Below, piece after piece: positions 13,586-37,480 of a stretch of DNA of 64,000 nt (position 1 is the first letter of the stretch; each line of letters starts with the position of its first letter). Origin of the DNA: Gordius sp. MW1 (lineage: Eukaryota > Nematomorpha > Gordioida > Gordea > Gordiidae); NCBI GenBank assembly GCA_964036665.1, contig OZ038527.1, forward strand, positions 18,250,221 through 18,314,220. The letters are read 5' to 3'. The position numbers and the translations under genes are program-made. A model generated the notes under the pieces. It was not told the origin of the DNA. It worked only from the letters and a program-made list of their open reading frames with translations, and did no database searches.

Positions 13586-14889
13586 GACTAATTTTAATAT
13601 TTAATGAAAAATTATATGGGCTTTTAAACTTGTTTTAAACTTTTTAACACTTTCAAAATATATTAAAATATTATTAAATTTACGAAAATTCCATCCTGGA
13701 TTCAATTTTATTGTCCATCTCACATGCATATTGTTTAACATATCTTGCATATTTTTATGCACCACATGCACATATAAAGCCAATAGTTTTCCAAAAAAGA
13801 GTTTGTACACCATTTTTCCCTCTTATCATAAGTTTGATAAATTAATATTAATAACTAGTGTTGTGAATGAACGCGTTCAAATTTTTTGAAAAAACTGATG
13901 AACGGCGTTTCTTTTTTTCGGTGAACTTGGAACGTGAACGCGTTCGAATTTAACGTTCGTTCAATTTTAAAAACCCTTTTTTATTTTTTTGTTTATAAAA
14001 TAATGTTAATCACATTTTTTAACAAAAAAGTCTTATTTTGCTGTTTTTTCTTTTTCCTGTTACCTATTCCGAAATACTTTTAACATACCATAACGTGCAA
14101 AAGAAGATAAGATTAAAGTTTATTAATTTGATATTTTTAATTACATTTTAATTTATAAAAATATACTTGTATCTTTTGTTAAATTATAGTATTTTAAATA
14201 CAAAATACTTTTAAATTACCATTTCATTACCAACAAACTTTTCGTTTTATTGAAAAAAGAAATTGAAACCCCTTGAATTAATGATGAAAGAAGAAGAACT
14301 GTCGATTCCAAAATATCGTTTTTTTGACTAGGAAGTTGAGGGCGGATTGGAGGATAAAATTATCGCAATACATTAAATGTTTTTAATAAATTTCCTATTC
14401 AAAAAATTTGTTTATTAAGTATAATACGCCAATCCCCTCATCTACCCTTGTGGGGCGGGTCTTTAGTATAGCTAATGCTGTATTAACTGCCAAGTGTGTC
14501 CGCTTATCCGACAAAAGTTTTGAAAAACAATTATTATAAAAAATTTTTAAGAAAATTTTTTTATAAAAAAATCTTTATATTCGCTCTATTATATTATATT
14601 GTATTTATAATTATAAAATCGAAATAAAACTGTTATTTTTTTATCATGGCTAATATATTGTGTTAAAAAATATAAGAAATTTATTTATATTAAATTAAAT
14701 TTAAAAAGAAATTATCATACAATTTTGAACGAAAGTGAACGGGTTCCCTTTTTTGAAAACCAACGTGAACGTGAACGCCTTCGAATTTTATTGGGAAGGG
14801 AACCGTGCACGTTGATATATGCTCAGGACGGATTTCTTTTCCTACCAACATTTGCATTTTTGTTCCATCTAAACTGCTTGGTTGATAAA

Positions 14890-15228
14890 GTGTTTCCAAA
14901 TATTAACGCCCATTATCATGATCTAATTTGGCTCCGCCAACGGGCTATTCTCGCCCCAAGAATAATGACGTCCACGAGCTCAACAATCTCATTCTGTCTA
15001 ACATTCAAGGCAATCCAATTACTTACAAAATCGGTTGACACTGCTGTTGTTATTGATGACACAAATTATGCAATCGAATCTTTCAATTCAAATGATCTGG
15101 CAGGGATGCCACCTCACATTCTGCATTTGAAAATTTTCGTATCAAATATCGCGATGTGCAATTTCAGTCAGCCAAAACTTTACAATGGTTTACGTATCGC
15201 TGTTAAGCGCTTGATGTACAACGTTTAA
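14890..15228 (+). pseudogene. Helitron helicase fragment (unit copy 1)
   Basis: The frame ends with LAGMPPHILHLKIFV, MCNFSQPKLYNGLRIAVKRL and a stop, matching Pif1-type Helitron helicase. Upstream, CLVDKVFPNINAHYHDLIWL and RQRAILAPR match the same protein. Between them the frame is off by one (the helicase would read NDVHELNN but this frame reads through another phase), so the fragment is dead. It joins directly to the start of unit copy 2. Confidence 0.8.
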
Positions 15229-18904: not shown

Positions 18905-20231
18905 GACTAATTTTAATATTTAATGAAAAATTATATGGGCTTTTAAACTTGTTTTAAACTTTTTAACACTTTCAAAATATATTAAAATATTATTAAATTT
19001 ACGAAAATTCCATCCTGGATTCAATTTTATTGTCCATCTCACATGCATATTGTTTAACATATCTTGCATATTTTTATGCACCACATGCACATATAAAGCC
19101 AATAGTTTTCCAAATAATAGTTTATACACCATTTTTTCCTCTTATCATAAGTTTGATAAATTAATATTAATAACTAGTGTTGTGAATGAACGCGTTCAAA
19201 TTTTTTGAAAAAACTGATGAACGGCGTTTCTTTTTTTCGGTGAACTTGGAACGTGAACGCGTTATTTTTTTTTGATGAACGCGTTCGAATTTAACGTTCG
19301 TTCAATTTTAAAAACCCTTTTTTATTTTTTTGTTTATAAAATAATGTTAATCACATTTTTTAACAAAAAAAGTCTTATTTTGCTGTTTTTTCTTTTTCCT
19401 GTTACCTATTCCGAAATACTTTTAACATACCATAACGTGCAAAAGAAGATAAGATTAAAGTTTTTTAATTTGATATTATTAATTATATTTTAATTTATAA
19501 AATTATACTTGTATCTTTTGTTAAATTATAGTATTTTAAAGACAAAATACTTTTAAATTACCATTTCATTACCAATAAACTTTTCGTTTTATTGAAAAAA
19601 GAAATTGAAACCCCTTGAATTGATGATGAAAGAAGAAGAACTGTCGATTCCAAAATATCGTTTTTTTGACTAGGAAGTTGAGGGCGGATTGGAGGATAAA
19701 ATTATCGCAAAACATTAAATGTTTTTAATAAATTTCCTATTCAAAAAATTTGTTTATTAAGTATAATACTCCAATCCCCTCATCTACCCTTGTGGGGCGG
19801 GTTTTTAGTATAGCTAATGCTGTATTAACTGCCAAGTGTGTCCGCTTATCCGACAAAAGTTTTGAAAAACAATTATTATAAAAAATTTTTAAGAAAATTT
19901 TTTTATAAAAAAATCTTTATATTCGCTCTATTATATTATATTTTATTTATAATTATAAAATCGAAATAAAACTGTTATTTTTTTATCATGGCTAATATAT
20001 TGTGTTAAAAAATATAAGAAATTTATTTATATTAAATTAAATTTAAAAAGAAATTATCATACAATTTTGAACGAAAGTGAACGGGTTCCCTTTTTTGAAA
20101 ACCAACGTGAACGTGAACGCCTTCGAATTTTATTGGGAAGGGAACCGTGCACGTTTATATATGCTCAGGACGGATTTCTTTTCCTACCAACATTTGCATT
20201 TTTGTTCCATCTAAACTGCTTGGTTGATAAA

Positions 20232-20570
20232 GTGTTTCCAAATATTAACGCCCATTATCATGATCTAATTTGGCTCCGCCAACGGGCTATTCTCGCCCCA
20301 AGAATAATGACGTCCACGAGCTCAACAATCTCATTCTGTCTAACATTCAAGGCAATCCAATTACTTACAAAATCGGTTGACACTGCTGTTGTTATTGATG
20401 ACACAAATTATGCAATCGAATCTTTCAATTCAAATGATCTGGCAGGGATGCCACCTCACATTCTGCATTTGAAAATTTTCGTACCAAGTATCGCGATGTG
20501 CAATTTCAGTCAGCCAAAACTTTACAATGGTTTACGTATCGCTGTTAAGCGCTTGATGTACAACGTTTAA
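20232..20570 (+). pseudogene. Helitron helicase fragment (unit copy 2)
   Basis: This is the same fragment as at 14,890-15,228, with the same off-phase middle section, so the frameshift predates the unit duplication. It reads LAGMPPHILHLKIFVPSIAM and NFSQPKLYNGLRIAVKRL before the stop. It differs from the unit 1 copy by single substitutions such as VPSI versus VSNI. Confidence 0.8.
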
Positions 20571-21510
20571 ATACATTGAATATTAATACCAAAATGGGTC
20601 AAATAAAATGATAGAAATAAACTATTCTGATATAGCATCATCGAGAGGATCTTCCAGAATTGGCCAAGAATCTGCGAGCGATTTAAAATTGTATTTGGCT
20701 ATAAGGGTATCAAATCATTGTTTTAGTAAAAATGATACCGAATGTTTAGACGGAGGAGAACGTCTTCCTACCTCTTTAAAAAGGGGGTTGCCAAAGGTGC
20801 TTGAACACGAAGCGACCAATGGAATAAAAATGTTTGAGGATAAAAGGCCTTATTGGTTTTTCGCCCCTCAGCAACAATAAGAGTATCATTGTTGTAGTTA
20901 GAGGAGGAGGTCAATACAGGTCGAGTCTCGTATAAGGTGAAAACCATTTCTCCGTGGTATAAAAGACCCCTCAGGACGCATACCTCCCTCCATCCGATAA
21001 CTCCGAGATGGATGTGATCTTTGGCCTCTTAAGAGCACTTTGATATATGGCATTGGTCTTATTGTGTCGAGCATATTTAAGTTTGTTTGCCAGACAGTTT
21101 AAGGAATGCCAGGCTTGTTCGTCTACAAGTGTGTTGCAATTTCACAAATAAATGGCTTCGAAAATTTGATCCCTACTCTGAGCTGTGGATTACTTGAGTT
21201 CCGAGTCGTTCAGCATCCTCCCGTTGAGACGGTTGACTTCTAGCCACTCGTGACCTAAGCCATCAAACAAAAACGACCTTAAATTAGAAAACTGGTGGCA
21301 TCGCTACGCAAAATTAGATAATCAACAGAGCGCAACACAGATCTGGCATCCCAATCGCTTTGTTGTGGGGTTTGTGGCAGAGGTGTTGCGGGATTGGTAT
21401 TGTATTCCCAAATAGCTAAAGCCATAGTGGGTTCTCTTTAACCAAGTACAATCTTGATAGATATCTTGTACGGATTCGTAAGAAGAATGAAATGAGACTA
21501 TAGATATTTA
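20571..21510. repeat. Tandem unit, copy 3, left part
   Basis: The third copy repeats the LINE fragment at the start of the unit (minus strand, 20,608-21,510). It stops being colinear at gatattta (21,503-21,510), the target site of the Mutator-like element. The unit resumes at 27,925. More substitutions relative to copies 1 and 2 are visible here than between those two. Confidence 0.9.
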
Positions 21511-21854
21511 GCGTACCAAGTCAAACGATATAAAGACACTAAATATAAAATCTCTAAAAATCTCTAAAAATAACTAAAAATCTCTAAAAATAACTAAAAA
21601 TCTCTAAAAATAACTAAAAATCTCTAAAAATAACTAAAAACCCTAAAAACACCTATTGTAATATGAATCACGTTCATTTTACTCAATCCCAAAAAAGAAA
21701 ACCAATTTTAGTTTATCAAGATCATTATTATACAAAGGTCAATGGGACAGATTCAAAATCTTACTACAGATGTAGGGTAAATGAATGTGGTGGCAGAGGT
21801 TTCTATTCAGATGCAAGGTTTACAATGACACGTGCACATGACAATCTCCCACAT

Positions 21855-22057
21855 TGTTGTGTTGATACTTTATATTCTTATTTCAATTGTTATTACAACT
21901 CTCATTGATTCTATTAACAACCATATATATATATCGATTTGTACCCAATTGTTGGTAACCATGTTAATTTAGTTCCTGTGTCAACGTTCATGTTCTAACT
22001 AATAAATATCAATGTTTAGTTTCATTCCTGTGTCAACGTTCATGTTCTAACGTAATA
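21855..22057 (+). repeat. 5' LTR of the gypsy element
   Basis: It starts tgttgtgttg and ends acgtaata. It contains two direct copies of a 27-bp motif with core ttcctgtgtcaacgttcatg (21,973-21,999 and 22,025-22,051). It should hold promoter and polyadenylation signals; an aataaat lies between the two copies. Its first 54 bases extend the FLYWCH exon-1 reading frame to a stop at ~21,908. Confidence 0.95.
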
Positions 22058-22058
22058 G

Positions 22059-22072
22059 TGGCGACGAGGAAC
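22059..22072 (+). other. Putative tRNA primer-binding site
   Basis: tggcgacgaggaac begins two bases after the LTR. TGG pairs with the CCA end of a tRNA, as in retroviral-type priming. I cannot assign the tRNA with confidence. Confidence 0.7.
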
Positions 22073-22109
22073 AAGTAAATTAATTAATTGTTTGTAGGAA
22101 ACATTCGAA

Positions 22110-25100
22110 ATGGAGGAATCAAAGTTATCAAAAATTCATTTAGCAGAGTTCAATGCTGAACTACATTCAATTGAGGATTATATATTTAATATGGAATCCA
22201 TATTGGAAATTAAAGGAATGGAGGCTACTGCATCAGTTAAGAAAAAGGTTCTTCTAGCTTTCATAGGGCTCAATACTATTAAAGAACTTAGACAATTACT
22301 TTACCCTACTAAGTTAAAGGATGCACAATATGAAGATATAGAAAAAATGTTATTCCTAAAATACCAACCCCCTCAGACTGTATTTGCTTCAAGATTTGAA
22401 TTGTTAAATATTACAAGACATAATGGTGAATCCATACTAGAATTAGTCAGAAGAATTAAAACATGTATTAGCAAATGTAATTACAAATCTGACATTGATG
22501 AACGTTGCAGGGACCATTTTATTTTTGCAATTAAGTTAAAGAGGCTAGAATTGGAGCTGAGGACCAAATTTCCTGACACCTTAGATGAAGTGGGTAATCC
22601 GTTAACTTTTGATAGGGTAATCAATATGGCAATAACAATGGAGAGGGCAGATACCGAAACACAAGAAGAGAAAGAAGAAATGCTTTGTAAGATTAAACAT
22701 GAATCATTCTCTCATAATCAACGTGACCAATCAAATAAACATTTTGGAAAAACGGTAAGTTGCTCAAGGTGCCATAAAGAACACCCCAAATTTCGTTGTC
22801 CAGCGTTCAATGCCACATGCTACAAATGTAAAAGAAAAGGACATTTTGCCATTGGCTGTCGAAGTTCATTGAATCAGATTGTTGATTACGAATCTTCGGA
22901 TTCTGTAAACCGGATTGGGCAACATGCTAAACGTCTAACCATTACGGCGAGGCTTAATGGGCATCCGATTTCTATGGATTATGATACTGGAGCGCAGGTC
23001 TCCGTTATTAATGTTAAAGTATGGCAGCTTTTAGGGAGACCGTCGCTTCATGAATGCGCGATTCCCAAAGCCTATGGAAATCAACCCGTCGAAATAATGG
23101 GAAAAACTCATATGGTCGTGGAAGTCGGTCATATTTCGCACTATCTTTCGGCTGTAGTTACGAAATCCAAAGATGTACCCTTATTTGGGTTGCCCTGGAT
23201 TATTAAGTTTGGATTCCAAATTCCTAAAGAAGTTAAAATACATAAAATCAACCAGGAATTTGTGCAAAAGGAATCAATTAATCTCAACAAAGAGTTTCCA
23301 CTGGTATTCAATGAAACTCCTACCCATTTACAGGGATTTGTTGTAAAAATCATGCTTTTGGACGTAGCGAAACCTATTGCGATCCCGGCGAGAAGAGTTC
23401 CTTTTCCGTTACGGAAGCCGGTTGAACTGGAACTCAATAGATTGGTACAGTCAGGTATCATTGAAAAAGTGGATCCTAGTGTTAGTAAAATAACGTGGTG
23501 CACGCCGATAGTAAACGTTAGGAAGAAAAATGGCGAAATTAGAATTTGTGCCGATTTCAAGGTCACTCTTAACCCATTCATTCATAATGATCATCACATC
23601 ATTCCTACGTTTGACGACATAGCAGCTAAAATTCGGGATGGTTATTTATATACCAAAGTTGACTTACGTGATGCATACCTTCAACTACCAATTGCTCTGG
23701 AATGTCAGAATTTATTAACTATTTCCACACACGTCGGTTTTTTTAAATACAAAAGAATGCCATTTGGGTTATCTTGTGCGCCTTTGATTTTTCAGAGATA
23801 CATGGAGAGTATTTTGAGTGGTTGCAACCACACGGGTATTTATTTAGATGATATAATTATCACGGGCAAAGATTACCAGGATCATCTATACAATGTAAGG
23901 GAAGTACTGAGCAAGTTACAATCCGTGGGCATGAAAGCACAATTTTCAAAGGTCGAATTTTTGAAAAAATCTATCACTTTTCTTGGACACACCTTTGACA
24001 GTGAAGGTATCCACCCTTCAAGTGATAAAGTACGAGCCATCAAAGACTGCCCAGCCCCAAAGAATGTTAAGGAATTGCGTTCCTTTCTGGGCTTAATCAA
24101 TTATCATGAAAAGTTTATACCACATTTACATGGTATAATGGCTCCCCTACATAAATTAACTAGTATCAAATCAAAATGGTATTGGTCACAAACCGAGGAG
24201 TCGGTGTTTCAAAAGGTTAAAACTTTGCTATCGGAGCAGTCTACGTTAGTTCCTTATTCTAATGAGTTACCGCTGATCCTGGAATGCGACGCATTGGAAC
24301 ATGGATTTGGAGCGGTACTTTTTCACTTAATTGGCGATAATAAGAGGCCAATTGCTTACGCGTCAAGGACGTTGATTGATGGTGAGAAGCAATACGCATC
24401 AATCGATAGAGAAGCAAGGGCCTTAGTCTTTGGTATGGAAAAGTTTCATACTTACTTATCAGGTCGCAAGTTTGTGCTACGCACGGACCATAAACCGTTG
24501 GAAAGGATTTTTGGGGTTTCAAGGGAATTGCCCAAAATCAGCAATAACCGTTTAATAAGGTGGGCATGGAAAATGTCGGGGTATGATTATAAAATAGAAT
24601 ACATTCCTGGCAAAGATAACGGATGTGCTGATGCCTTATCTCGTTTACCGGCCCCTGCCACGGAGTCCGATATGATCAATTTTTACAAAAGCAATTCGAT
24701 AAATAGTATTCGTCTTTTAAATCTACAAGATTTACACTTAACAGAGGAATTATTAATAAAGGAATCTCTCGTGGATACAAACTTAAAACTGTTAAAAAGA
24801 TTTATAGATAAAGGTTGGCCTAAAAGCAAAAAGGACCTCCACAAGGATATTCAAGTTTTTTTTGACAGGAAGAATGAGTTAGAGCATGACAAGGGAGTCA
24901 TTTTTGTAGACGGCCTGATAATTGTGCCGTCACGACTAAGGCATCAAGTCCTGTCAATAATTCACCGGGGCCATCCAGGGATCAATGCAATGAAATCGAT
25001 CGCCAGATTATATGTTTATTGGCCGCACATGGATAAGGATATTGAAAGGCACGTGCAGAATTGTGTGGGGTGCCAGAAAAATAGAAGTAATAGACCTGAA

Positions 25101-26000
25101 GTCCCTCTGTATTCTTGGAACGTAACTGAAAACCCTTGGGAAAGGGTACATTTAGATTATGCGGGGCCAGTTGACGGATATTATTGGTTGGTGGCGGTGG
25201 ATTCGTTTTCCAAATGGATTGAAGTAGCGCAGTTACGAAGTTCGACCATTCAGGTTACATTAAAGAAATTACGAGAGTGGTTTGCCAGATGGGGCGTTCC
25301 GAAACAAATAGTTACGGACAACGGACCCCAGTTAAGAAGCCAAGAGATGCACTTCTTTTGTGATCAGTATCATATTAAACACATTAAAACAACGCCGTAC
25401 CATCCAAAAACGAATGGACTCGTCGAAAGAGCCATCAGGACGTTGAAATCACGTTACGCAGCGGCGCGCGAATATAATGCGGACCCGGAAGTCTGCATGT
25501 TAGATGTCCTCCTTAGCTATCGCATAAGCGAGCATTCTTCAACCGGTAGATCCCCATCTAAAGCATTAATTGGAAGAAATGTTAAAACGGCGTTGGACTG
25601 GGTACGTCCCACTCAGAAGAAATATATGGAACAAAAAATCGATAAACAGGAAGAGTGGCATGATGCGCATGCGGCGAAGAGAGAATTCATTCCGGGTCAA
25701 TTGGTATGGGTAAAAAATGAAATGAATAGCGGGTGGAGAGCGGGAAAGATTCTTAAACGCAACGGACCTTGGTCCTATCTAGTGGAAACGCGAAACAAAA
25801 ACATGCGAAAACATGGTGATCAGTTGAGAGATCGGGCAAGCATTGTTGATCCTCAGGTCCCGGAAGAGGGGGAAGATGATAGTTCTGACGACATGTCTTC
25901 TGGTCCAACACCAAACGAACAAGAACAAGAAAGTAGTACCATCCTAAGGAAATCGGAAAGGATTAGGAAACCCCCCAGCCGTTTAATAGAAGAAATTTAG
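22110..26000 (+). CDS. Ty3/gypsy Gag-Pol polyprotein, intact
   Basis: The 1,296-residue frame encodes everything needed for copying through RNA and integration. A gag-like region (1-230) ends in a zinc knuckle, CYKCKRKGHFAIGC (237-250). The aspartic protease has DTG at 292-294. Reverse transcriptase has the catalytic YLDD at 578-581. RNase H residues D727, E768 and D793 are present. The integrase has H952/H955/C985/C988 and the catalytic triad D1016, D1070, E1106 (35 residues between the last two). The C-terminal tail is acidic and ends KSERIRKPPS-like. Gag and pol are fused without frameshift. The start is the first ATG after the leader. All key residues are intact, so it may be active. Confidence 0.97.
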   Translation: MEESKLSKIHLAEFNAELHSIEDYIFNMESILEIKGMEATASVKKKVLLAFIGLNTIKELRQLLYPTKLKDAQYEDIEKMLFLKYQPPQTVFASRFELLNITRHNGESILELVRRIKTCISKCNYKSDIDERCRDHFIFAIKLKRLELELRTKFPDTLDEVGNPLTFDRVINMAITMERADTETQEEKEEMLCKIKHESFSHNQRDQSNKHFGKTVSCSRCHKEHPKFRCPAFNATCYKCKRKGHFAIGCRSSLNQIVDYESSDSVNRIGQHAKRLTITARLNGHPISMDYDTGAQVSVINVKVWQLLGRPSLHECAIPKAYGNQPVEIMGKTHMVVEVGHISHYLSAVVTKSKDVPLFGLPWIIKFGFQIPKEVKIHKINQEFVQKESINLNKEFPLVFNETPTHLQGFVVKIMLLDVAKPIAIPARRVPFPLRKPVELELNRLVQSGIIEKVDPSVSKITWCTPIVNVRKKNGEIRICADFKVTLNPFIHNDHHIIPTFDDIAAKIRDGYLYTKVDLRDAYLQLPIALECQNLLTISTHVGFFKYKRMPFGLSCAPLIFQRYMESILSGCNHTGIYLDDIIITGKDYQDHLYNVREVLSKLQSVGMKAQFSKVEFLKKSITFLGHTFDSEGIHPSSDKVRAIKDCPAPKNVKELRSFLGLINYHEKFIPHLHGIMAPLHKLTSIKSKWYWSQTEESVFQKVKTLLSEQSTLVPYSNELPLILECDALEHGFGAVLFHLIGDNKRPIAYASRTLIDGEKQYASIDREARALVFGMEKFHTYLSGRKFVLRTDHKPLERIFGVSRELPKISNNRLIRWAWKMSGYDYKIEYIPGKDNGCADALSRLPAPATESDMINFYKSNSINSIRLLNLQDLHLTEELLIKESLVDTNLKLLKRFIDKGWPKSKKDLHKDIQVFFDRKNELEHDKGVIFVDGLIIVPSRLRHQVLSIIHRGHPGINAMKSIARLYVYWPHMDKDIERHVQNCVGCQKNRSNRPEVPLYSWNVTENPWERVHLDYAGPVDGYYWLVAVDSFSKWIEVAQLRSSTIQVTLKKLREWFARWGVPKQIVTDNGPQLRSQEMHFFCDQYHIKHIKTTPYHPKTNGLVERAIRTLKSRYAAAREYNADPEVCMLDVLLSYRISEHSSTGRSPSKALIGRNVKTALDWVRPTQKKYMEQKIDKQEEWHDAHAAKREFIPGQLVWVKNEMNSGWRAGKILKRNGPWSYLVETRNKNMRKHGDQLRDRASIVDPQVPEEGEDDSSDDMSSGPTPNEQEQESSTILRKSERIRKPPSRLIEEI

Positions 26001-26012
26001 GCTTTTGTAGGC

Positions 26013-26021
26013 GAAGGGAAA
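26013..26021 (+). other. Polypurine tract of the gypsy element
   Basis: gaagggaaa lies immediately before the right LTR and 12 bases after the Gag-Pol stop codon, the expected plus-strand primer position. Confidence 0.75.
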
Positions 26022-26224
26022 TGTTGTGTTGATACTTTATATTCTTATTTCAATTGTTATTACAACTCTCATTGATTCTATTAACAACCATATATATATA
26101 TCGATTTGTACCCAATTGTTGGTAACCATGTTAATTTAGTTCCTGTGTCAACGTTCATGTTCTAACTAATAAATATCAATGTTTAGTTTCATTCCTGTGT
26201 CAACGTTCATGTTCTAACGTAATA
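26022..26224 (+). repeat. 3' LTR of the gypsy element
   Basis: It is the same length as the 5' LTR, and I found no difference on comparing the two, including the (at)6 run before cgattt. It is followed by the second cacat target duplication and then the continuing MULE/FLYWCH sequence. Confidence 0.95.
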
Positions 26225-26319
26225 CACATAAAAGTATGTTAATATTAATTTTACTTATTATATTATAGAGTACCCTAATTATGGATTGATACCTTCAGAT
26301 CTACCTATATCCCATTTGA

Positions 26320-26660
26320 GTAATTTAATTTAAAAACTTTTATCATCATTTCTTTAGACAGTGGATCTATACAAACATCCTACTTAAATGATGCAACAAA
26401 TCTACCTATATCACTTTTGAGTAATTTAATTTAAAAACTTTTATCATCATTTCTTTAGACAGTGGATCTATACAAACATCTTACTTAAATGAAGCAACAA
26501 ATCTACCTATATCCCTTTTGAGTAATTTAATTAAAAAACTTATATCACTATTTCTATAGACAGTGGATCTATACAATCATCTTACTTAAATGATGCAACA
26601 ATCTACCTATATCCCATTTGAGTAATTTAATTTAAAAACTTTTTAATTGGTAAAGATAAT
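26320..26660 (+). repeat. 101-bp tandem array of mini-intron plus symmetric exon
   Basis: Each period is a 38-bp gtaatttaattt...ctttag segment plus a 63-bp acagtggatctata...cttttga segment. Introns are 26,320-26,357, 26,421-26,458 and 26,522-26,559; exons are 26,358-26,420, 26,459-26,521 and 26,560-26,621. The first two introns are identical. The third differs at several sites but keeps GT and AG. The final donor at 26,622 has no matching acceptor, and the last exon has lost one base, which brings in a TGA at its end. It could be a plain minisatellite, but the phase bookkeeping argues for coding units. Confidence 0.8.
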
Positions 26661-27924
26661 AATGTTGTAATTATTAAGCAGTTGTATATAATATTTTTGT
26701 TAGTATTTTAATGATAGCATGTAGATAAGATTTTATTGTTATAATTTATAAATAATTCAAATAATTCTAACTTTTTGTAAATGTTGTTATAATTATATCT
26801 AATAAGAATTAATTTATTAAGACAGCAATATAATTAAAGAGATGGATATAGTAGCTTTATGTTTTAATGATTATTCATTAGAGTTAATTGCTAAAGATAT
26901 TAACAGAAATTTAGAAATATATGAATATTAGTGGTGTTGTAATAAACATACTTAATAGAGTTTAATTAGGATAATAGTTGTAATATTAAATGATTTTGTA
27001 AGTGTTATAATCACTATGTTAAAATAAGATAAGTGTTATAATGATTTTTACTTTTAAAAGCTAATAACTCTCTGAATACACCTATGTTAAAATAGATCTT
27101 CTAACGACTGTCATGCATACAAAGAATAATATTTGTTGATTTCAAATCAATCAAACTTATATTAACATTTTATTAAATCAGATACATCATATAAAAAAGA
27201 GTCAGGTTTTTGAGAACACATGCAGTATGAGGCATTAAAAAAACATAAATGTAAAGGATAATAAATATCAGTATAAAGCCATATAAGCCTATTAATATTA
27301 TCATTTATAAGTAAGTTATATATATTTATTGAATAAACTCTCTTCCTTTGAGAGATGTGAAGCAAATTGAATTTGGTTTTGGTCTTTGCTTTCAAAAATT
27401 CAAGATCATTAACTAAAAATTATATTAAAACTAATATCTAAAGGGATTTACTTTAATGATTGTTTTGAAATCCTTGAAGAGCTTCTAATAATAAATGTGC
27501 ATCTTCAAGAGAACCTATTCTTTTGCTTCTATTTATAGGGTTTTTAGTTTGATAAGAGGTATCTTTTTGAATTTCCACTCCTCTCTATATTTTTAATAAA
27601 ACTTTAACAGACTAAATATTTACATTTCGTAACCTTAACTACATGTCCAATTCAATCAAAAATTATATCTAAGCCAATATAAATTTTTTATCATATAATA
27701 AACTTTTCTAATTTAAAAAACAAATACAATTGAGTTAGGCAATTATAATTAAATTAATTTTATATGCTAAAGATTTATATTATAATATCCTTGCACCCTT
27801 TTTTTATATAATAACTTTTATACTAAAATATTGTTTATTATTTTATCTTTATTTTTATATTTTAAATATGTACCAAAAAGCTGTACTATGAAACATTTGA
27901 CTTTATAACGTTTGACCCGGGTTC
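26661..27924. other. AT-rich right half of the MULE, no gene recognised
   Basis: I see only short frames. One at 26,842-26,931 (starting MDIVALCFNDYS) and a 77-residue minus-strand frame at 27,162-27,395 match nothing I know. No MULE DDE or SWIM motif is visible. The last ~30 bases form the right TIR. Confidence 0.45.
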
Positions 27925-28164
27925 GATATTTAGGCAGGTGAGCAAATCCCTACCTGACGCCAACCCTTTTTTGCACACGGAGTTGTCGCAGGTAGTTTTG
28001 TCTCTCTAATATCCACACTTAGATTAAATGTGATGCCTTGTCATAATTTTTATTGGTTAAAATCTTTCCTGATTCCTATATGTTATAAAACCTTTAATAC
28101 TAAATTGAAAGTTATTTTGATCAGGCATCAAATTTTACCTTAATTTTTTTTATTAATTTTTATT
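27925..28164. repeat. Tandem unit, copy 3, right part
   Basis: After the second gatattta the sequence resumes the unit at ggcaggtgagcaaatccc, matching 10,651 and 16,172 onward. It includes the end of the LINE fragment (to ~28,025, minus strand) and the ttataaaacctttaatac segment. It departs from the other copies at ~28,160 where a different repeat begins. Confidence 0.9.
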
Positions 28165-28172
28165 AGCATCTA

Positions 28173-28511
28173 CATGGGTTTACCCCCTGTCCCCCCCTAA
28201 TTAAAAAAAAAAATTTCAATACAAAAACCCTTAAAAATTAAAAAAAAAAAGTTTTGCCCACCCCCCTAATTAGCTAGGGGGGAGCAGGGGGTCCGGCTGC
28301 CTCCACTGCCTAATACAGGGAGTTGCTTTTTTTTGGTCGCCGAAAAATTTTTGGATTGTCGAAACCTTTTTTTTTTGCTCTCAGGAAAATTTTTGAATAG
28401 TCGAGACCTTTTGTTTTGCTCTCAGGAAAAAATTTTTTAATAGTCAAACAAAAAATTTTGTTAAAAATAATCTGTCCCCCCCCCCTAATTCAAAACCTGG
28501 GTACGCCCATG
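28173..28511. mobile_element. hAT-type miniature element with CATGGGYGTA termini
   Basis: The ends are catgggtttacccc and the reverse complement of catgggcgtacccagg. Flanking agcatcta copies lie at 28,165-28,172 and 28,512-28,519, an 8-bp target duplication. The 339-bp interior contains C and A homopolymers and repeated ttttgaatagtcgagacc-like stretches, with no coding frame. Its ends resemble those of the 33,707 element and the ggcgtagccagg motifs at 38,625 and 40,790. Confidence 0.75.
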
Positions 28512-28845
28512 AGCATCTACCTTACAAAATGTTATTAAGATGAATATAATTAAAATTATATCAATTTAAATGTATAAGTTATCTATCTCTAATTCAAATA
28601 TGGGATAATTGACGTTCAAATTTAAAAACGCTATGGTATAACAATGGGATCGTCAAAAGTAACAAGGCTTTTCGAATCCCCGCCCAATCCCCTGCTAGTA
28701 AAAAAAACAAGTGATAAACGTCAACGCTCATTATTTCGTGCTTTTAACTAATAGCAATTGGGGATTGACGTTCGCTGTTTTACAACGTTCGAGATTTCTG
28801 TACGCTACACCAGGGTGAGATAAAGTAGAAGTAAGCAATGGGCAT
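28512..28845. repeat. Repeated flank, copy 1 (uninterrupted)
   Basis: The segment from agcatctaccttacaaaatg to ctacaccagg is found again at 29,897-30,101, continuing at 33,508-33,610 after the LINE. This copy shows the empty LINE target, aagtgataaacgtcaacgc. The two copies bracket the G/C minisatellite. I find no coding frame. Confidence 0.85.
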
Positions 28846-28861
28846 CATTATTTGCAAGGAA

Positions 28862-29855
28862 TTGGGGTTTGCCCCCCCCCCTTATTTTTTACCCTCTTTC
28901 TCACCAGGGGGGAGGGGGGTGATTTGCCCCCCCCCCTTATATTTTACCCTCTTTCTCACCACAGGGGAGATGGTGGGGGGGGGGGGTGCTTTGCCCCCCC
29001 CCTCTTATTTTTGACCCTCTTTCTTACCAGAGGGGAGGGGGGTCTTTAGCCCCCCTATTTTTTATCCTATTTATTACCAGAGGGGAGGGGGGGGGGGTCT
29101 TTTGCACCCCTTATTTTTTATCCCTCATTTTCACTGGTGCCCCCCCCTGGTAAGAAAAAGGATAAAATATAAGGGGGGGGGGGGCAAAACACCCCCCTTC
29201 CCATCTCCCCCCCTGGTGAGAAAGAGGGTAAAAAAAGGTGGGGGGGGGGCAAATCACCCCCCTCCCCTCTGGTGAGAAAAAGGGTAAAAAATAATGGGGG
29301 GAAAGAAAATCCCCCCTCCCCCCCCCCCCTGGTAAGAAAGAGGGTAAAAAATAATGGGGGGGGGCAAATCACCCCCCTCCCCTCTGGTGAGAAAAAGGGT
29401 AAAAAATAATGGGGGGGGAAGCAAATCCTTCCCTCCCCCCCTGGTAAGAAAGAGGGTAAAAAATAAGGGGGGGCCACCCCCTACCCCCTGGTGAGAAAGA
29501 GGGTAAAAAATTGTGGGGGGGGGGGGCAAATCACCCCTTTCCCCCTGGTGAGAAAGAGGGTAAAAAATAGGGGGGGGGGGGCAAATCACCCCCCCCCCCC
29601 CTCCCCCCTTGTGAAAAAGAGGGTAAAATAAGGGGGGGGCAAATCACCCCCCTCCCCCCTAGTGAAAAAGAGGGTAAAAAATAAAGGGGGAGGGGCAGTC
29701 ACCCCCCCCCCCCCCCCTCCCCCCTGGTGAAAAAGAGGGTTAAAAATAGGGGGGGGGGCAAATTACCCCCCTCCCCCTGGTGAGAAAGAGGGTAAATAAT
29801 AAGGGGGAGGGCAAATCACCCCCCTCCCCCCTGGTGAGAAAGAGGGTAAAAAATA
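28862..29855. repeat. Inverted G/C-rich minisatellite
   Basis: The array has ~50-65-bp units made of a conserved linker (ggtgagaaagagggtaaaaa on one strand) and C- or G-homopolymer blocks of 5-16 bases. About five units in one orientation (28,862-29,135) meet about thirteen in the opposite orientation (29,140-29,855), so the array has a head-to-head inversion near 29,135. The long proline/glycine-rich frames here are by-products of the repeat. Runs of four or more G blocks occur on each strand. Confidence 0.9.
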
Positions 29856-29896
29856 ATATTCTTCTATTTAATTAATTTAATATTTAATACAACACA

Positions 29897-30101
29897 ATTA
29901 GCATCTACCTTACAAAATGTTATTAAGATGAATATAATTATATCAATTTAAATGTATTAGTTATCTATCTCTAATTCAAATATGGGATAATTGACGTTCA
30001 AATTTAAAAACGCTATGGTATAACAATGGGATCGTCAAAAGTAACAATGCATTTTCCCAATCCTCACCCAATCCCCTGTTAGTAAAAAAAGACGTGATAA
30101 A
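29897..30101. repeat. Repeated flank, copy 2, left of the LINE
   Basis: It matches 28,513-28,710 closely (agcatctaccttacaaaatg, ttgacgttcaaatttaaaaa) and is interrupted by the LINE at gataaa (30,096-30,101). It resumes at 33,508. Confidence 0.85.
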
Positions 30102-33100
30102 AATCATCTTGGAATCTATACAAATTAGTATATATCCCTCAAAGGATTTGGAAAAAATTGCCGTTATAGGAATTCTGCACGAAAATTATATTAATTCTTA
30201 TTATGCACTACAAACGGAATCCTCTACTATTTACCTAGAAATTCTTCATGTATCACTTATCTATTAACATTGGTACATTACTTATCCCTATTTTATTAAC
30301 ATTCATAGTTCTTTTTACAATACATATTTAGGCCTAAATTTATATACATAAAAATAAATATTAAACATAAGTCCACATACAATGCAACAATCACCTTTTT
30401 CATACACATATTATCCTTAAAATGTTCAGAGGTTTTATTATAAAACTAATATCTATATAATTTATATATATCTTAATAATGGTTCACCAAATGCTTTAAT
30501 TCCTAAAATAATTTAAAAATGGTTTCAACTAAATCCTTTTGTTGTACATGCAAAAAACTTATTAGCCTCAAAAAAAATAACTGTTTTATAATACATGGCC
30601 ACCCTTCTGCTCGTTGTATCTCCTCTGGGAAATTCCCACCTGCTAGCCCTCTTATTCCACCTCTTGCCTCCATAATAGAGGATGCTCCTCATAATGCCCC
30701 TTGCTCGTCCAACTCAGATACTCAATCCTTAGACAGCCCCATTATTACCACTTCTTTGGACTATTCTTGGAGTGATTCTTTTTTAGCCTTAACCTTCCCC
30801 AATACTATTTCAAGAATCCCTAGGGGAGCTCGCCCGGCTTCTCAACAGTTTTTAATCAACCTTATAACTTCCATAACAAACTCTCCCTCAAATCTTACTA
30901 ACTGGGATAAACTTTTCAGGCTTACCTTTCACACCTTATATGTAAGAGGACCCAACGCTGTAAATCTGTCCAAACATATTAAAGACTCCTTTTTAAATTT
31001 CAATATTGATAATATTTTTAAAAATACCCCCCAGCACAAACAATCCCCAAACTCCTCCACTGCCAAGCAAACTGCTAGCTAATTTCTAAAAAAATTGATA
31101 ACTTTAACCCCAAAAGTGCTCTAAGAATATTTTATGACAATGACTCAATTGCTCCTTACTCCCTTGATTCATACCAACAACTCAAATCTAAACATCCCCC
31201 ATCCTCATCGGCAAATCGACTCCCTACCTCAGCCTCTTCCATAAAACTAGACTCATCCGACATTCGGGAAGCCATCCATTCCTTTCCCATCGACTCTGCA
31301 GCAGGCCTTGATGGTTTCCGCCCTGTTTATTTACAAGACCTGATTAACCTCCAAAATGTGAGCGCTGCAATTTTACTCAACTCTATAACGTCCCTATGCA
31401 ATTTAATTGTCAACGGTAATATTCCTACCGAGATAATCCCTATATTGTTCGGCGCTAAACTCATCGCTATCAAAAAACCTGATAATTCGGTGAGACCCAT
31501 TGCTATTGGCAGTGTTTTTCGACGTATAATATCAAAACTCATTTGTAAGACAATCAAATCCAGTTTAAGCGACAAGTTAATTCCTCATCAATTAGGATTT
31601 GGGGTTAAAGGCGGCTGTGAGGCTGCCAGTCACGCTGCGCGGATAAGTCTAAAACAAATTCCCTCCAATCACTGCATGGTTAAACTGGACTTTGCCAATG
31701 CTTTTAATAATATTCGCCAAGAAACGATAATAAATACCTTCATTGATGAGTTTCCAAAGTTTTCAAATTACATCAGTTTAAGTTACGGTTGTATATCAAA
31801 ACTAAAGTTTGGGGACTTTTTAATTGATTCGGCAGAAGGTATTCAACAGGGAGACCCCCTAGGTCCACCTCTGTTTTGTCTTGGGATCAAAAATTTAACT
31901 GAATCCCTCTCAAACCAATGCTCATTATCATTAAACGTCTGGTACCTGGACGATGCTACCTTATGCGGCCCTCCTGAAGAAATTTCCAAGGTCATTCTTT
32001 TAATCCAACATTATGAAACCTCCCTAAACTTGAGATTGAATATCTCTAAATGCGAGATATATCAGTGCCCGGATACCAACAAATTTCCCATTTTTAAGCC
32101 CTTTTTAAAAGTTGAATTGATGAGTTTTACTCATCTAGGCTCTCCAATAGGTGGGCAAATCGCCTTAAAAGAATTTTTACATAGCCACTTATCAACTCTT
32201 ACATCGAAGATGGATATTCTTAATACCCTCCCCAAACAACGCATTTTATATCATTAAAAACTATTTCAACATCTCAAAAATTCAACACTGCTTCCGGTCC
32301 TCTTCAGCCTTTTTATTGCCCGAGATTTTAAAAAGCTACGATAGCTTCATGAAGAATACTTTAGAAGCAATTCTTAATATCAAATTCAGCACTTCCTCGT
32401 GGCTCCAAACCTCTTTACCTACTAAAGCTGGCAGCTTGGGCATACACCCAGCTACCTCAATTTCGTTAGCTGCGTTTATCTCTTCTTATAAATCTGCCCA
32501 AGGATTGATCGACCGTTTAATCACAACAAATGAGGATCCGTCGTTTGTAGAAGCCCTAGACGTCTGGTCAGCCAACGTCAACCCAGGGACCCCCTTCCCC
32601 ATAACCTCTAGACAAAAGGATTGGGATGCTGGCCTCGTATCGCGCTCCGTTGATTACCTCTTATCGAGTTGCGACGCCCGCCAGCACTTCAACCTTAAAT
32701 CTTTAGTTTTTGACGGATCGGGTCACGAGTGGCTTGAAGCTTATCCTAGCTCACTTTCTGGATTGATGTTGGAGGACCCAGAGCTAGCATACGCCATCGC
32801 CCTCAGACTAGGAATTCCCTATTCAAAGGAATATTCCTGCCGCAACTGCTCCCAGAGCATAGACATTTATGCAAGGCATCCCCTACACTGCCTTTACAAT
32901 AAATTTAAATACATAAGGCACGAAAAGGTGAATAGCCTTATCCAATCCGCTTTTAAAAAAGCCAACATTCCCTCCGTTTTAGAGCCGTCAGACCCTTCGT
33001 TGGAGGGAAGGATGCGACCAGACGGCTCTACCCTTATCCCTTGGCAAAATGGTCTACCCCTTAAATGGGATTTCACCTGCATAGACATTTTCGCCCCCTC

Positions 33101-33507
33101 TAACCAAAACTACAACGCTCTGACTCTCGCCGAACACCGCAAAACGGTTAAATACCAGGCCCTCCTACCATCTAATATCTTTACCCCTATCGTTGCCTCG
33201 TGTTCTGGGACTTTTGGTCCGGCCGCCATTAAGCTTTTTAAAGAAATCAGCCGTCGCTGCCCGCCCTCTAAATATTCCACTAATTTTTTACTTAAACAAA
33301 AAATTGGTATTTTTATAGCTAAGTACAATTTTAAATCCCTGGCCGACAGTTGGCCACTTTTACAAGATGACACATGCGACATTTTTGAATCATAATATTT
33401 TTATTTTGTTTTACATCCGCTATATTTTTCGAATTTTGACACTTCGTTTTTATAATGTTCTTACGTTCAAATAAACAATATATACATTTAAAAAAAAAAA
33501 TAAAAAA
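30102..33507 (+). mobile_element. Nearly full-length non-LTR retrotransposon (WYLDD type)
   Basis: The insert lies between gataaa copies (30,096-30,101 and 33,508-33,513). The second repeated flank at 28.5-28.8 kb gives the pre-insertion sequence. It ends with an A-rich tail (33,490-33,507). About 417 bp of leader precede the coding region, which is interrupted by two frameshifts only. Fragments of the same family are at 8.85-9.5, 9.74-10.7, 15.3-16.25, 20.6-21.5 and 34.6-38.0 kb, making it the most common LINE in the window. Confidence 0.9.
30519..33395 (+). pseudogene. LINE polyprotein: RT and restriction-like endonuclease, two frameshifts
   Basis: Part 1 (30,519-31,082) starts MVSTKSFCCTCKKL with a possible zinc-binding site and later has NWDKLFRLTFHTL. 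After a frameshift near 31,085, part 2 (to 32,257) is reverse transcriptase. It has AAGLDGFRPVYLQ, SVRPIAIGSVFRRIISKL, GGCEAASHA, MVKLDFANAFNNIR, GIQQGDPLGPPLFCL and the catalytic WYLDDATLCGP. A second frameshift near 32,240 leads into part 3 (to 33,395). That has CRNCSQSIDIYARHPLHC and then GRMRPDGSTLIPWQNG and WDFTCIDIFAPS. The latter looks like a PD-(D/E)xK endonuclease as in restriction-like-endonuclease LINEs. The joined length (~950 residues) fits one protein. Clade is uncertain. Confidence 0.85.
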
Positions 33508-35539: not shown

Positions 35540-37480
35540 ATGAGCAAAAAGCAGAAAGAAACATTGGAAATTTTTTTTGATCTAAATAATCGCGGACCAG
35601 GAACTTCAAATATTAGTGAAGGTTCCGATGATGATACAGCGAAAAATGAAACGGAAAAAACCAATAGTCCTAAAACTAAAGGTATAAAATCAAGTAACAA
35701 TAGAATTAGAAAATACTATCGTGATTATATTAAATATGGGTTTGTAAGCATAGAAGTTCGAGGAACTACAAAACCACAATGTGTTATATGTGGTGTAGTT
35801 CTCTCTAATGAATCAATGAAACCTAATAAATTGTGGAGGCATTTAAATCTTAACCATGATAAATATAAAAATAAAAAGGAAGATTTTTTTATAAGAAAAA
35901 GAGATGAATTAAAAAATCAAAAGACGCTCATAAATGTGACAACTACTACCAATAAAAATTTATTAAAAGCTTCATTTATTGCAGCTTTGTACATTGCAAA
36001 AGCAAAAAAACCATTTACTATAGCCGAAGAATTATTAAAACCTGCCATGTTTAATATTTGTAAAGAGCTATTTGAACCCTTTGTGTCAAACAAAATTAAA
36101 GAAATACCTTTGTCAAATGATGCAATTTATAATAGAACTTTATTAATAGCTAATGATCTTCAGGAACAGTTAACTGGCTATATTAAAAATTCTCCTTGGT
36201 TCTCATTACAAATAGATGAATCTACAGATGTTTCTAACAGGAGCATTTGCTTAGGATACATTCGATTTATTGATTTTATAAAAAGGGATATATCTGAAGA
36301 ATTTCTCTTTTGCATAGACTTAGAAACAGATACAACAAGTGAAAATATATTTAACAAAATAGATTCCTTTCTGAATACTAATGGCTTACTCTGGAAAAAC
36401 TGTGTTGGAATTTGCACAGATGGTGCTGCCTCTATGACTGGCTGTTATAAGGGCATTACATCAAGAATAAAACGTATTGCACATGCAAACATAACAACTA
36501 CTAATTGTTTTATTCATAGGGAACAATTAGCCTCCAAGGAAATGAGTGAAGAATTGAATGAAGTTTTGATAATTTCAGTAAAGATTATAAATTTCATAAA
36601 AGGAAGTTCACTAAAGTCAAGATTATTTTCAATTTTTTGTGAAGAAGTTGGCGCAGATAATAGTTCTCTTTTATTTCACACAGAAGTGAGATGGCTATCA
36701 CGAGGAAAAATCTTAACTCGTTTATTTGAATTGAGACTGGAAGTTGAACTTTTTTTAAATGATAAAAACTCCAGCCTATCAAGCTATTTTGATGACAATA
36801 ATTGGGTCGCTAAATTGTCATATCTAGCGGATATTTTTACAATTCTAAATCAGTTGAATATATCTATGCAAGGACCTAAATCTGATATTTTTACTATGCA
36901 TAACAAAATTAAGGCTATGAAAATGAAATTACAAAGATGGATTCAAAGAATAGACTCAAATATATATGAAATGTTTCCATTCTATTCACAACTAATCTCT
37001 GATTCAAAATTTCAATTCGAGAAAGAAAATGTAAATTACTTGATTAAATGTCATATTTTAAAATTAATTGATAAATTTGAAAAATATTTCCCTAATGATG
37101 AAGGTCACATTACAAAACTCTGGATTCAAGATCCATACAACAATTATAAAAATACCAATTTATCATCAGATGATGAAGATTCATTATTAGAATTAATAAA
37201 TGATTGTAATTTAAAATCTTTGTTTAAAACTAAAAGTTTGGCGCAAGTTTGGATACAAATTCGTGCAGAATATCCTCCATTATTTTCAGCAGCAATGCAA
37301 AATTTGCTGCCTTTCGCTAGTACATATTTGTGTGAAAAAGGTTTCTCAACTATGGTGGATATAAAAACTAAAAAACGCAATCGATTGCGACTAGATTCCT
37401 GCATGAGGATAGCATTACAATCAATTGAACCAAGAATTAACAAATTGGTTGATGATGTTCAGCAGCAGAAATCTCATTAA
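35540..37480 (+). CDS. hAT transposase, ZBED5-like, intact 646 residues
   Basis: The protein would bind the element ends and cut and paste the element in the nucleus. A BED-type zinc finger sits near the N-terminus (C81, C84, H101, H106; QCVICGVVL ... LWRHLNLNH). The catalytic region has FSLQIDESTD (aspartate at 226) and CTDGAASMTG (aspartate at 294). CFIHREQL (322-330) is the usual hAT Cys-His motif. The C-terminal dimerisation domain reads STYLCEKGFSTM at ~594-605. Length and motif order match the family. The ATG chosen is the first in frame after stops upstream. No disabling change is visible. Confidence 0.95.
   Translation: MSKKQKETLEIFFDLNNRGPGTSNISEGSDDDTAKNETEKTNSPKTKGIKSSNNRIRKYYRDYIKYGFVSIEVRGTTKPQCVICGVVLSNESMKPNKLWRHLNLNHDKYKNKKEDFFIRKRDELKNQKTLINVTTTTNKNLLKASFIAALYIAKAKKPFTIAEELLKPAMFNICKELFEPFVSNKIKEIPLSNDAIYNRTLLIANDLQEQLTGYIKNSPWFSLQIDESTDVSNRSICLGYIRFIDFIKRDISEEFLFCIDLETDTTSENIFNKIDSFLNTNGLLWKNCVGICTDGAASMTGCYKGITSRIKRIAHANITTTNCFIHREQLASKEMSEELNEVLIISVKIINFIKGSSLKSRLFSIFCEEVGADNSSLLFHTEVRWLSRGKILTRLFELRLEVELFLNDKNSSLSSYFDDNNWVAKLSYLADIFTILNQLNISMQGPKSDIFTMHNKIKAMKMKLQRWIQRIDSNIYEMFPFYSQLISDSKFQFEKENVNYLIKCHILKLIDKFEKYFPNDEGHITKLWIQDPYNNYKNTNLSSDDEDSLLELINDCNLKSLFKTKSLAQVWIQIRAEYPPLFSAAMQNLLPFASTYLCEKGFSTMVDIKTKKRNRLRLDSCMRIALQSIEPRINKLVDDVQQQKSH

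Follow-up and report, generated by a model that had tools for sequence, protein, structure and literature searches.

The window, by which we mean the whole 64,000-nucleotide stretch analysed here, carries on its forward strand a deletion derivative of a Phantom-like MULE transposon (21512-27924; 6413 bp including a nested gypsy element), whose ends are common to other copies in the genome. It is flanked by identical 9-bp target-site duplications, GATATTTAG, at 21503-21511 and 27925-27933. The left terminal inverted repeat, CGTACCAAGTCAAACGATATAAAG (21512-21535), is imperfect when compared with the right end, and subterminal 10-bp tandem repeats detected with TRF, AAAATCTCTA or AAAATAACTA (21547-21649), lie immediately 5' of the start codon. 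Exon 1 encodes a FLYWCH finger (PF04500, 28.0 bits vs a cut-off of 23.6), of which 64 codons (21663-21854) run from the ATG to the insertion point of a gypsy LTR retrotransposon (21855-26224, same strand), recognized by its LTRs, its domains and a 5-bp duplication, CACAT. The LTRs (21855-22057 and 26022-26224) are identical across 203 bp, and the insertion is therefore probably recent.

Downstream of the gypsy, and still on the forward strand, the last four bases of exon 1 (26230-26233, matching uninterrupted copies such as L022) lead into a 35-bp intron 1 with the borders GTATGT and ATAG (26234-26268), and then into a 51-bp exon 2 that heads the array (26269-26319). Introns of 38 bp (26320-26357, 26421-26458, and 26522-26559) precede array exon units 1 (26358-26420, 63 bp), 2 (26459-26521, 63 bp), and 3 (26560-26621, 62 bp), respectively; the predicted peptides are KYPNYGLIPSDLPISHL and NSGSIQTSYLNDATNLPISLL, the latter from unit 1. 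The exact 101-bp period, the block lengths, the phase 1 junctions, and the continuous open frame of the original prediction were all re-read directly in the sequence (TRF: period 101, 3.4 copies, 93% matches, score 606). The same is true of its claim that a lost base in the last unit creates a TGA and that the next acceptor is lost: unit 3 is one base short and frameshifted with an in-frame TGA at its end, a one-base loss found identically in L037, and the truncated intron that follows (26622-26643) keeps its donor and has lost its acceptor in a deletion common to L037 and L040.

The 3' half of the window copy is 99.2% and 98.7% identical to these same two copies, L037 and L040, and its terminal segment (27582-27924, forward strand, ending in the right terminal inverted repeat) is common to other subfamilies, with 87-95% identity to 15 further copies. 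Judged by its sequence, the window copy is a member of a third deletion subfamily. A transposase match was looked for in this copy and not found; with the transposase missing, the array frameshifted and exon 1 interrupted by the gypsy, it cannot make the protein, and is a dead deletion derivative, a relic of its family. Scanning the window for Rfam families and tRNA genes gave no matches.

Copies, ends, and predicted gene

A search of the 211.8-Mb genome for the FLYWCH exon 1 gave at least 35 matches, at 77-100% protein identity (150 scored of 520 candidates); these include the match of the window itself, and some elements give two or three. Twenty loci of ~9.5 kb and 15 shorter ones were retrieved, from which the main family was assembled as 28 oriented stretches, comprising the window, 25 loci, and the opposite strand of two of those loci. 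Array units are present in all 28. When three loci were compared with 18 others and with the window, common element ends emerged: a left end of CGTACCAAGTCAAACG and a right end of GTTTGACCCGG(A/G)TTC, with variants. The terminal inverted repeats are about 24 bp long and imperfect. Perfect 9-bp target-site duplications flank 12 of the 19 end pairs found by these end motifs, the window included; that of L032 fits too once the right end is shifted by one base, and the same shift gives 8/9 matches in L021 and L030. The flanking 9-bp sequences of L034 and L038 do not match, and L026 and L040 carry each other's duplications, as after reciprocal exchange. These last two elements (G000:C4:15.38-15.40 Mb) lie ~13 kb apart in opposite orientations, as would be seen after recombination (inversion) between them.

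When introns were removed in silico by fixed patterns, L022, a copy that looks intact, gave one 759-aa frame running through 14 predicted introns, 13 of them in phase 1, to a stop after the transposase. The predicted protein has a FLYWCH finger, the exon array, a second FLYWCH finger, and a MULE transposase, in that order; its exons are the FLYWCH1 exon, the 51-bp exon, eight of 63 bp, a diverged one of 69 bp, another of 63 bp, and then the 465-aa part, and the introns include two longer ones, of 43 and 101 bp. Downstream of the array, the model matches PF10551 (MULE; 41.3 bits vs a cut-off of 27.6), and the second finger, ahead of the MULE domain, scores 24.9 bits vs 23.6. Used as a query, the 465-aa transposase part matched 13 database proteins, the two named ones coming from a mite and a moth, and aligned along its length with six of them (six were aligned). 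Three residues, D182, D248, and E371, are invariant in the transposase and these six homologs, and by likeness to Muta1 we designate them a putative DDE triad. A single finger is seen in each of the six, preceded by at most about 22 residues. Because the homologs start near their finger, the usual Phantom-type transposase probably corresponds to the C-terminal three fifths of the predicted protein, and FLYWCH1 with the array to an N-terminal addition; alternatively, the transposase could start at its own methionine, 3' of the array. With the full 759-aa model as query, none of 7998 scored candidate proteins passed, probably because the search words came from the repeats, and a PDB search with the transposase gave two matches at E about 0.08, which are not meaningful.

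Transposase sequence is present in 8 of the 28 main-family stretches given to the model script, and L022 alone reads to the stop, a count that reflects strict intron patterns and real frameshifts without separating them. L021 has three FLYWCH1-array cassettes in series, fused in frame through 24 introns, all in phase 1, before a transposase that is cut short. The cassette of FLYWCH exon and array occurs two or three times in tandem in L021 (3225-5888), L024, and L027. In the deletion derivative L028, the frame passes from 12 units into the C-terminal transposase sequence, for a predicted 353 aa with 14 introns, all in phase 1.

The transposase domain, the duplications, the putative DDE triad, and the terminal inverted repeats place the element in the MULE superfamily, and the combination of FLYWCH, MULE, and 9-bp duplications matches the Phantom elements. 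Phantom and Muta MULEs have a FLYWCH finger before the MULE DDE transposase (Tm1-A, 496 aa; Muta1, 504 aa) and target-site duplications of 8-10 bp, mostly 9; Tm1 of root-knot nematodes has tandem repeats near its ends, and the host of Muta1 is Aedes aegypti (PMC3169594, PMC5225508). The element described here resembles them in its finger and transposase (465 aa) and in its 9-bp duplications, and Tm1 in its tandem repeats near the ends; it differs in having a second, upstream FLYWCH finger and a tandem exon array with mini-introns, and its terminal repeats are short and imperfect.

Predicted introns and other unit types

Taken alone, the unit in the window is only suggestive of an exon and an intron. 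Among dinucleotide shuffles of the unit, 252/2000 (12.6%) permit at least one parse into a GT..AG block of 30-45 bp and a remaining exon that is open and a multiple of three; the real 101-bp unit has one parse only under these criteria, which is the proposed split. The exon/intron reading is firm because the other genome copies and other families agree with it, and to that extent the original interpretation of the blocks as phase 1 exons with mini-introns is borne out, for predicted splicing. In the transposase, two 35-bp introns fall in stretches where the six homologs align free of gaps. In the relative L053, intron 1 is exactly missing, with CATAAAA joined to the next exon in frame; this stretch (L053 1-300) may be a natural intron loss, or reflect an ancestor that never had intron 1. 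Introns of this size occur in a host gene as well, the single one examined: next to L045 (positions of about 1-1450 on the minus strand of that locus) lies OGFOD1, identified by a match to 4nhx at E 5.4e-55. Two of its introns, of 33 and 36 bp, are in register with the protein, which is restored once they are taken out; its two longer introns measure 108 bp and above 200 bp.

Besides the 63-bp exon of the main family, we found exons of 66 bp (L045, L046, L048, and L050), 81 bp (L047 and L051), 60 bp (L055), and 78-81 bp (L054). The five unit types differ in sequence, and all are in phase 1, multiples of three, and accompanied by introns of 33-44 bp. Multiples of three account for 18/20 measured exons of the 66-bp type (two end units outside the count; 18 introns of 33, 34, 35, or 39 bp), 7/7 of the 81-bp type (six of 81, one of 87), 5/5 of the 60-bp type, and 2/2 of the 78/81-bp type, in which the donor of a third exon is missing. 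Among the exons of the 66-bp type, one in L045 contains a stop and two in L050 have lost the frame. The predicted frame is open in 5/5 unit types and the other frames in 2/10. By coordinates, a 74%-identical transposase follows a 66-bp-type array by about 160 bp (C3), and a 70%-identical one follows an 81-bp-type array by about 1.4 kb (C1). No exon array is present in two more of the sampled families, L052 and L053, so that arrays are seen in 5/7 linker types; L052 has an 81-bp in-frame repeat within one open stretch. Across 352 bp next to and beyond the array, L054 and L055 share 94.9% identity, yet they have amplified different exons, which, in such close relatives, points to repeated, independent birth of arrays.

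Unit-number change and interpretation

Arrays contain 1-15 units each, so that the gain and loss of whole units among genome copies, as originally proposed, is evident. The 101-bp spacing is kept between 232/255 neighbouring unit starts, and unit variants recur as blocks inside arrays (such as BEGBEG in L022), a pattern that slippage or unequal exchange of entire units would produce; unequal exchange is the most likely route. The number of left-end 10-bp repeats also varies between elements (Spearman 0.41 with unit number, p 0.054, 23 copies), a correlation to which we attach no weight.

The main family has 251 units with a complete start; 9 of these, diverged or truncated, were set aside, leaving 242 to be scored. 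Length change out of phase, which the original prediction had named as speaking for an ordinary minisatellite, does occur, in 10/242 units (two shared one-base losses, affecting 9 units, and one 7-bp loss); the other 232/242 retain an exon length divisible by three, a number that includes a unit whose two losses sum to three and an L036 unit that has lost its donor. Among distinct, hand-listed length changes, 7/13 in exons and 1/11 in introns are in frame (p 0.03), or 6/12 in exons when the L036 donor loss is left out (p 0.07), a weak excess. Mean heterozygosity across the 242 units is 0.049, 0.041, and 0.032 at codon positions 1, 2, and 3, and 0.071 in the intron. An excess at third positions was sought in these units and not found, which counts against the exon-array reading. 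Since the units lack codon-position bias, selection on the linker is not visible among recent copies. For FLYWCH1, replacement sites are as changed as silent sites within the main family (L022, L036, and L044), and constraint is seen between families only (12 pairs; dN 0.25-0.47, dS 0.75-2.5, with dS near saturation). A constrained active lineage accompanied by many neutral copies is likely, as is a linker whose sequence matters little.

We consider it quite probable (roughly 85%) that the array lies within a transposase gene carried by a Phantom-like MULE, and that its units are phase 1 exons with mini-introns that change in number by whole units. From n units, splicing would yield n x 21 residues of a Ser/Thr/Asn-rich linker, which would join the additional N-terminal FLYWCH finger to the FLYWCH finger and MULE transposase of the ordinary type. 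Unequal exchange or slippage could then insert or delete entire units at low cost because every unit would be spliced and in frame, and this would explain why copies differ in unit number and why families have amplified different linker exons. The ends and duplications of the element, the unbroken frame of L022, the domain homology on both sides of the array, the variation in unit number, and the five array types are all read from the sequence itself; splicing in vivo, the role of the peptide as a linker, and tolerance of unit change rather than adaptation are what we infer from these patterns. More speculatively, and on the whole rather unlikely, MULEs of this lineage may repeatedly have made an array out of one linker exon, and the array may be a functional and rapidly changing part, its length setting the spacing of the fingers and, via splicing, the yield of full transposase, with internally deleted copies making finger-only competitors.

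A regulatory array, in which retention or skipping of array introns limits the amount of full transposase and FLYWCH1-array proteins without a catalytic domain compete for binding, is an unlikely account of the locus. Reading into an array intron of the main family meets a stop within a few codons, and derivatives of the L028 type, with 12 units joined in frame to the transposase C-terminus, would encode one such competitor; the frameshifted unit present in several deletion derivatives (L023, L025, L030, L039, and the window among them) argues against it. An ordinary noncoding minisatellite within a MULE, its reading frame a coincidence, seems improbable, even though the out-of-frame units and the lack of codon-position bias would suit it and minisatellites in MULEs are already published. 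These are described downstream of the transposase ORF in aphid Phantom and ahead of the 3' repeat in Rehavkus (PMC6446971). The array described here is likewise a tandem repeat inside a MULE-type element; unlike those minisatellites, its units are an exon and an intron within a gene. The 759-aa frame joins two domain-bearing parts continuously, all five unit types are divisible by three and open in the predicted frame, and in-frame length changes are, if weakly, commoner in exons than in introns.

The original prediction had likened the array to the micro-exon genes of schistosomes, which build variable secreted proteins by exon skipping. Tandemly repeated 81-base exons were reportedly described in S. 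mansoni by Davis et al. in 1988, and short, symmetric exons are common to both systems. Micro-exon genes have short exons that are mostly multiples of three, introns of 0.1-5 kb and secreted products (PMC10526429); the exons described here are also short multiples of three, but the array introns measure 33-44 bp and the product is a transposase, so the proposed likeness is not supported. Micro-exon genes have an N-terminal signal peptide; the predicted protein here has a FLYWCH finger at its N-terminus. A host gene as the source of protein variants is not supported either: the copies are dispersed, have transposon ends and 9-bp duplications, and encode a MULE transposase in the same frame as the array, which together make a host micro-exon gene extremely improbable.

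In host genes such as those for collagen, titin, and nebulin, symmetric exons have been duplicated in tandem together with their introns; here, this occurs in a mobile element. We found no description of tandem exons with their own mini-introns in a transposase gene in our searches of open-licence papers. The combination of FLYWCH, MULE, and 9-bp duplications in Phantom, and minisatellites in MULEs, are already known (PMC3169594, PMC6446971, PMC5225508). With the array read as part of the transposase gene, one genome offers many natural replicates of the growth and shrinkage of an exon array whose units carry their own introns, in which exon duplication, the maintenance of mini-introns, and intron loss (as in L053) become directly countable; it also raises the question of whether transposases use the splicing of a repeated linker for control.

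Other features of the window

Several further repeats and mobile sequences lie in the window. Near-identical copies of a 167-aa ORF at 14513-15228 and 19855-20570 are possible Helitron remnants; the second matches Pif1 helicase weakly, with a score under the cut-off. A possible foldback element at 28868-29857 consists of ~55-bp tandem repeats, rich in runs of G or C and in inverted arrangement, and similar stretches lie at 28509-28618 and 29897-30000 (87-92%). Three ORFs at 30519-33395, the middle one with a reverse transcriptase domain (PF00078, 74.7 bits), form a non-LTR-like element. An uninterrupted 646-aa ORF at 35540-37480, which matches DUF4371 only weakly and under the cut-off, resembles a hAT transposase.
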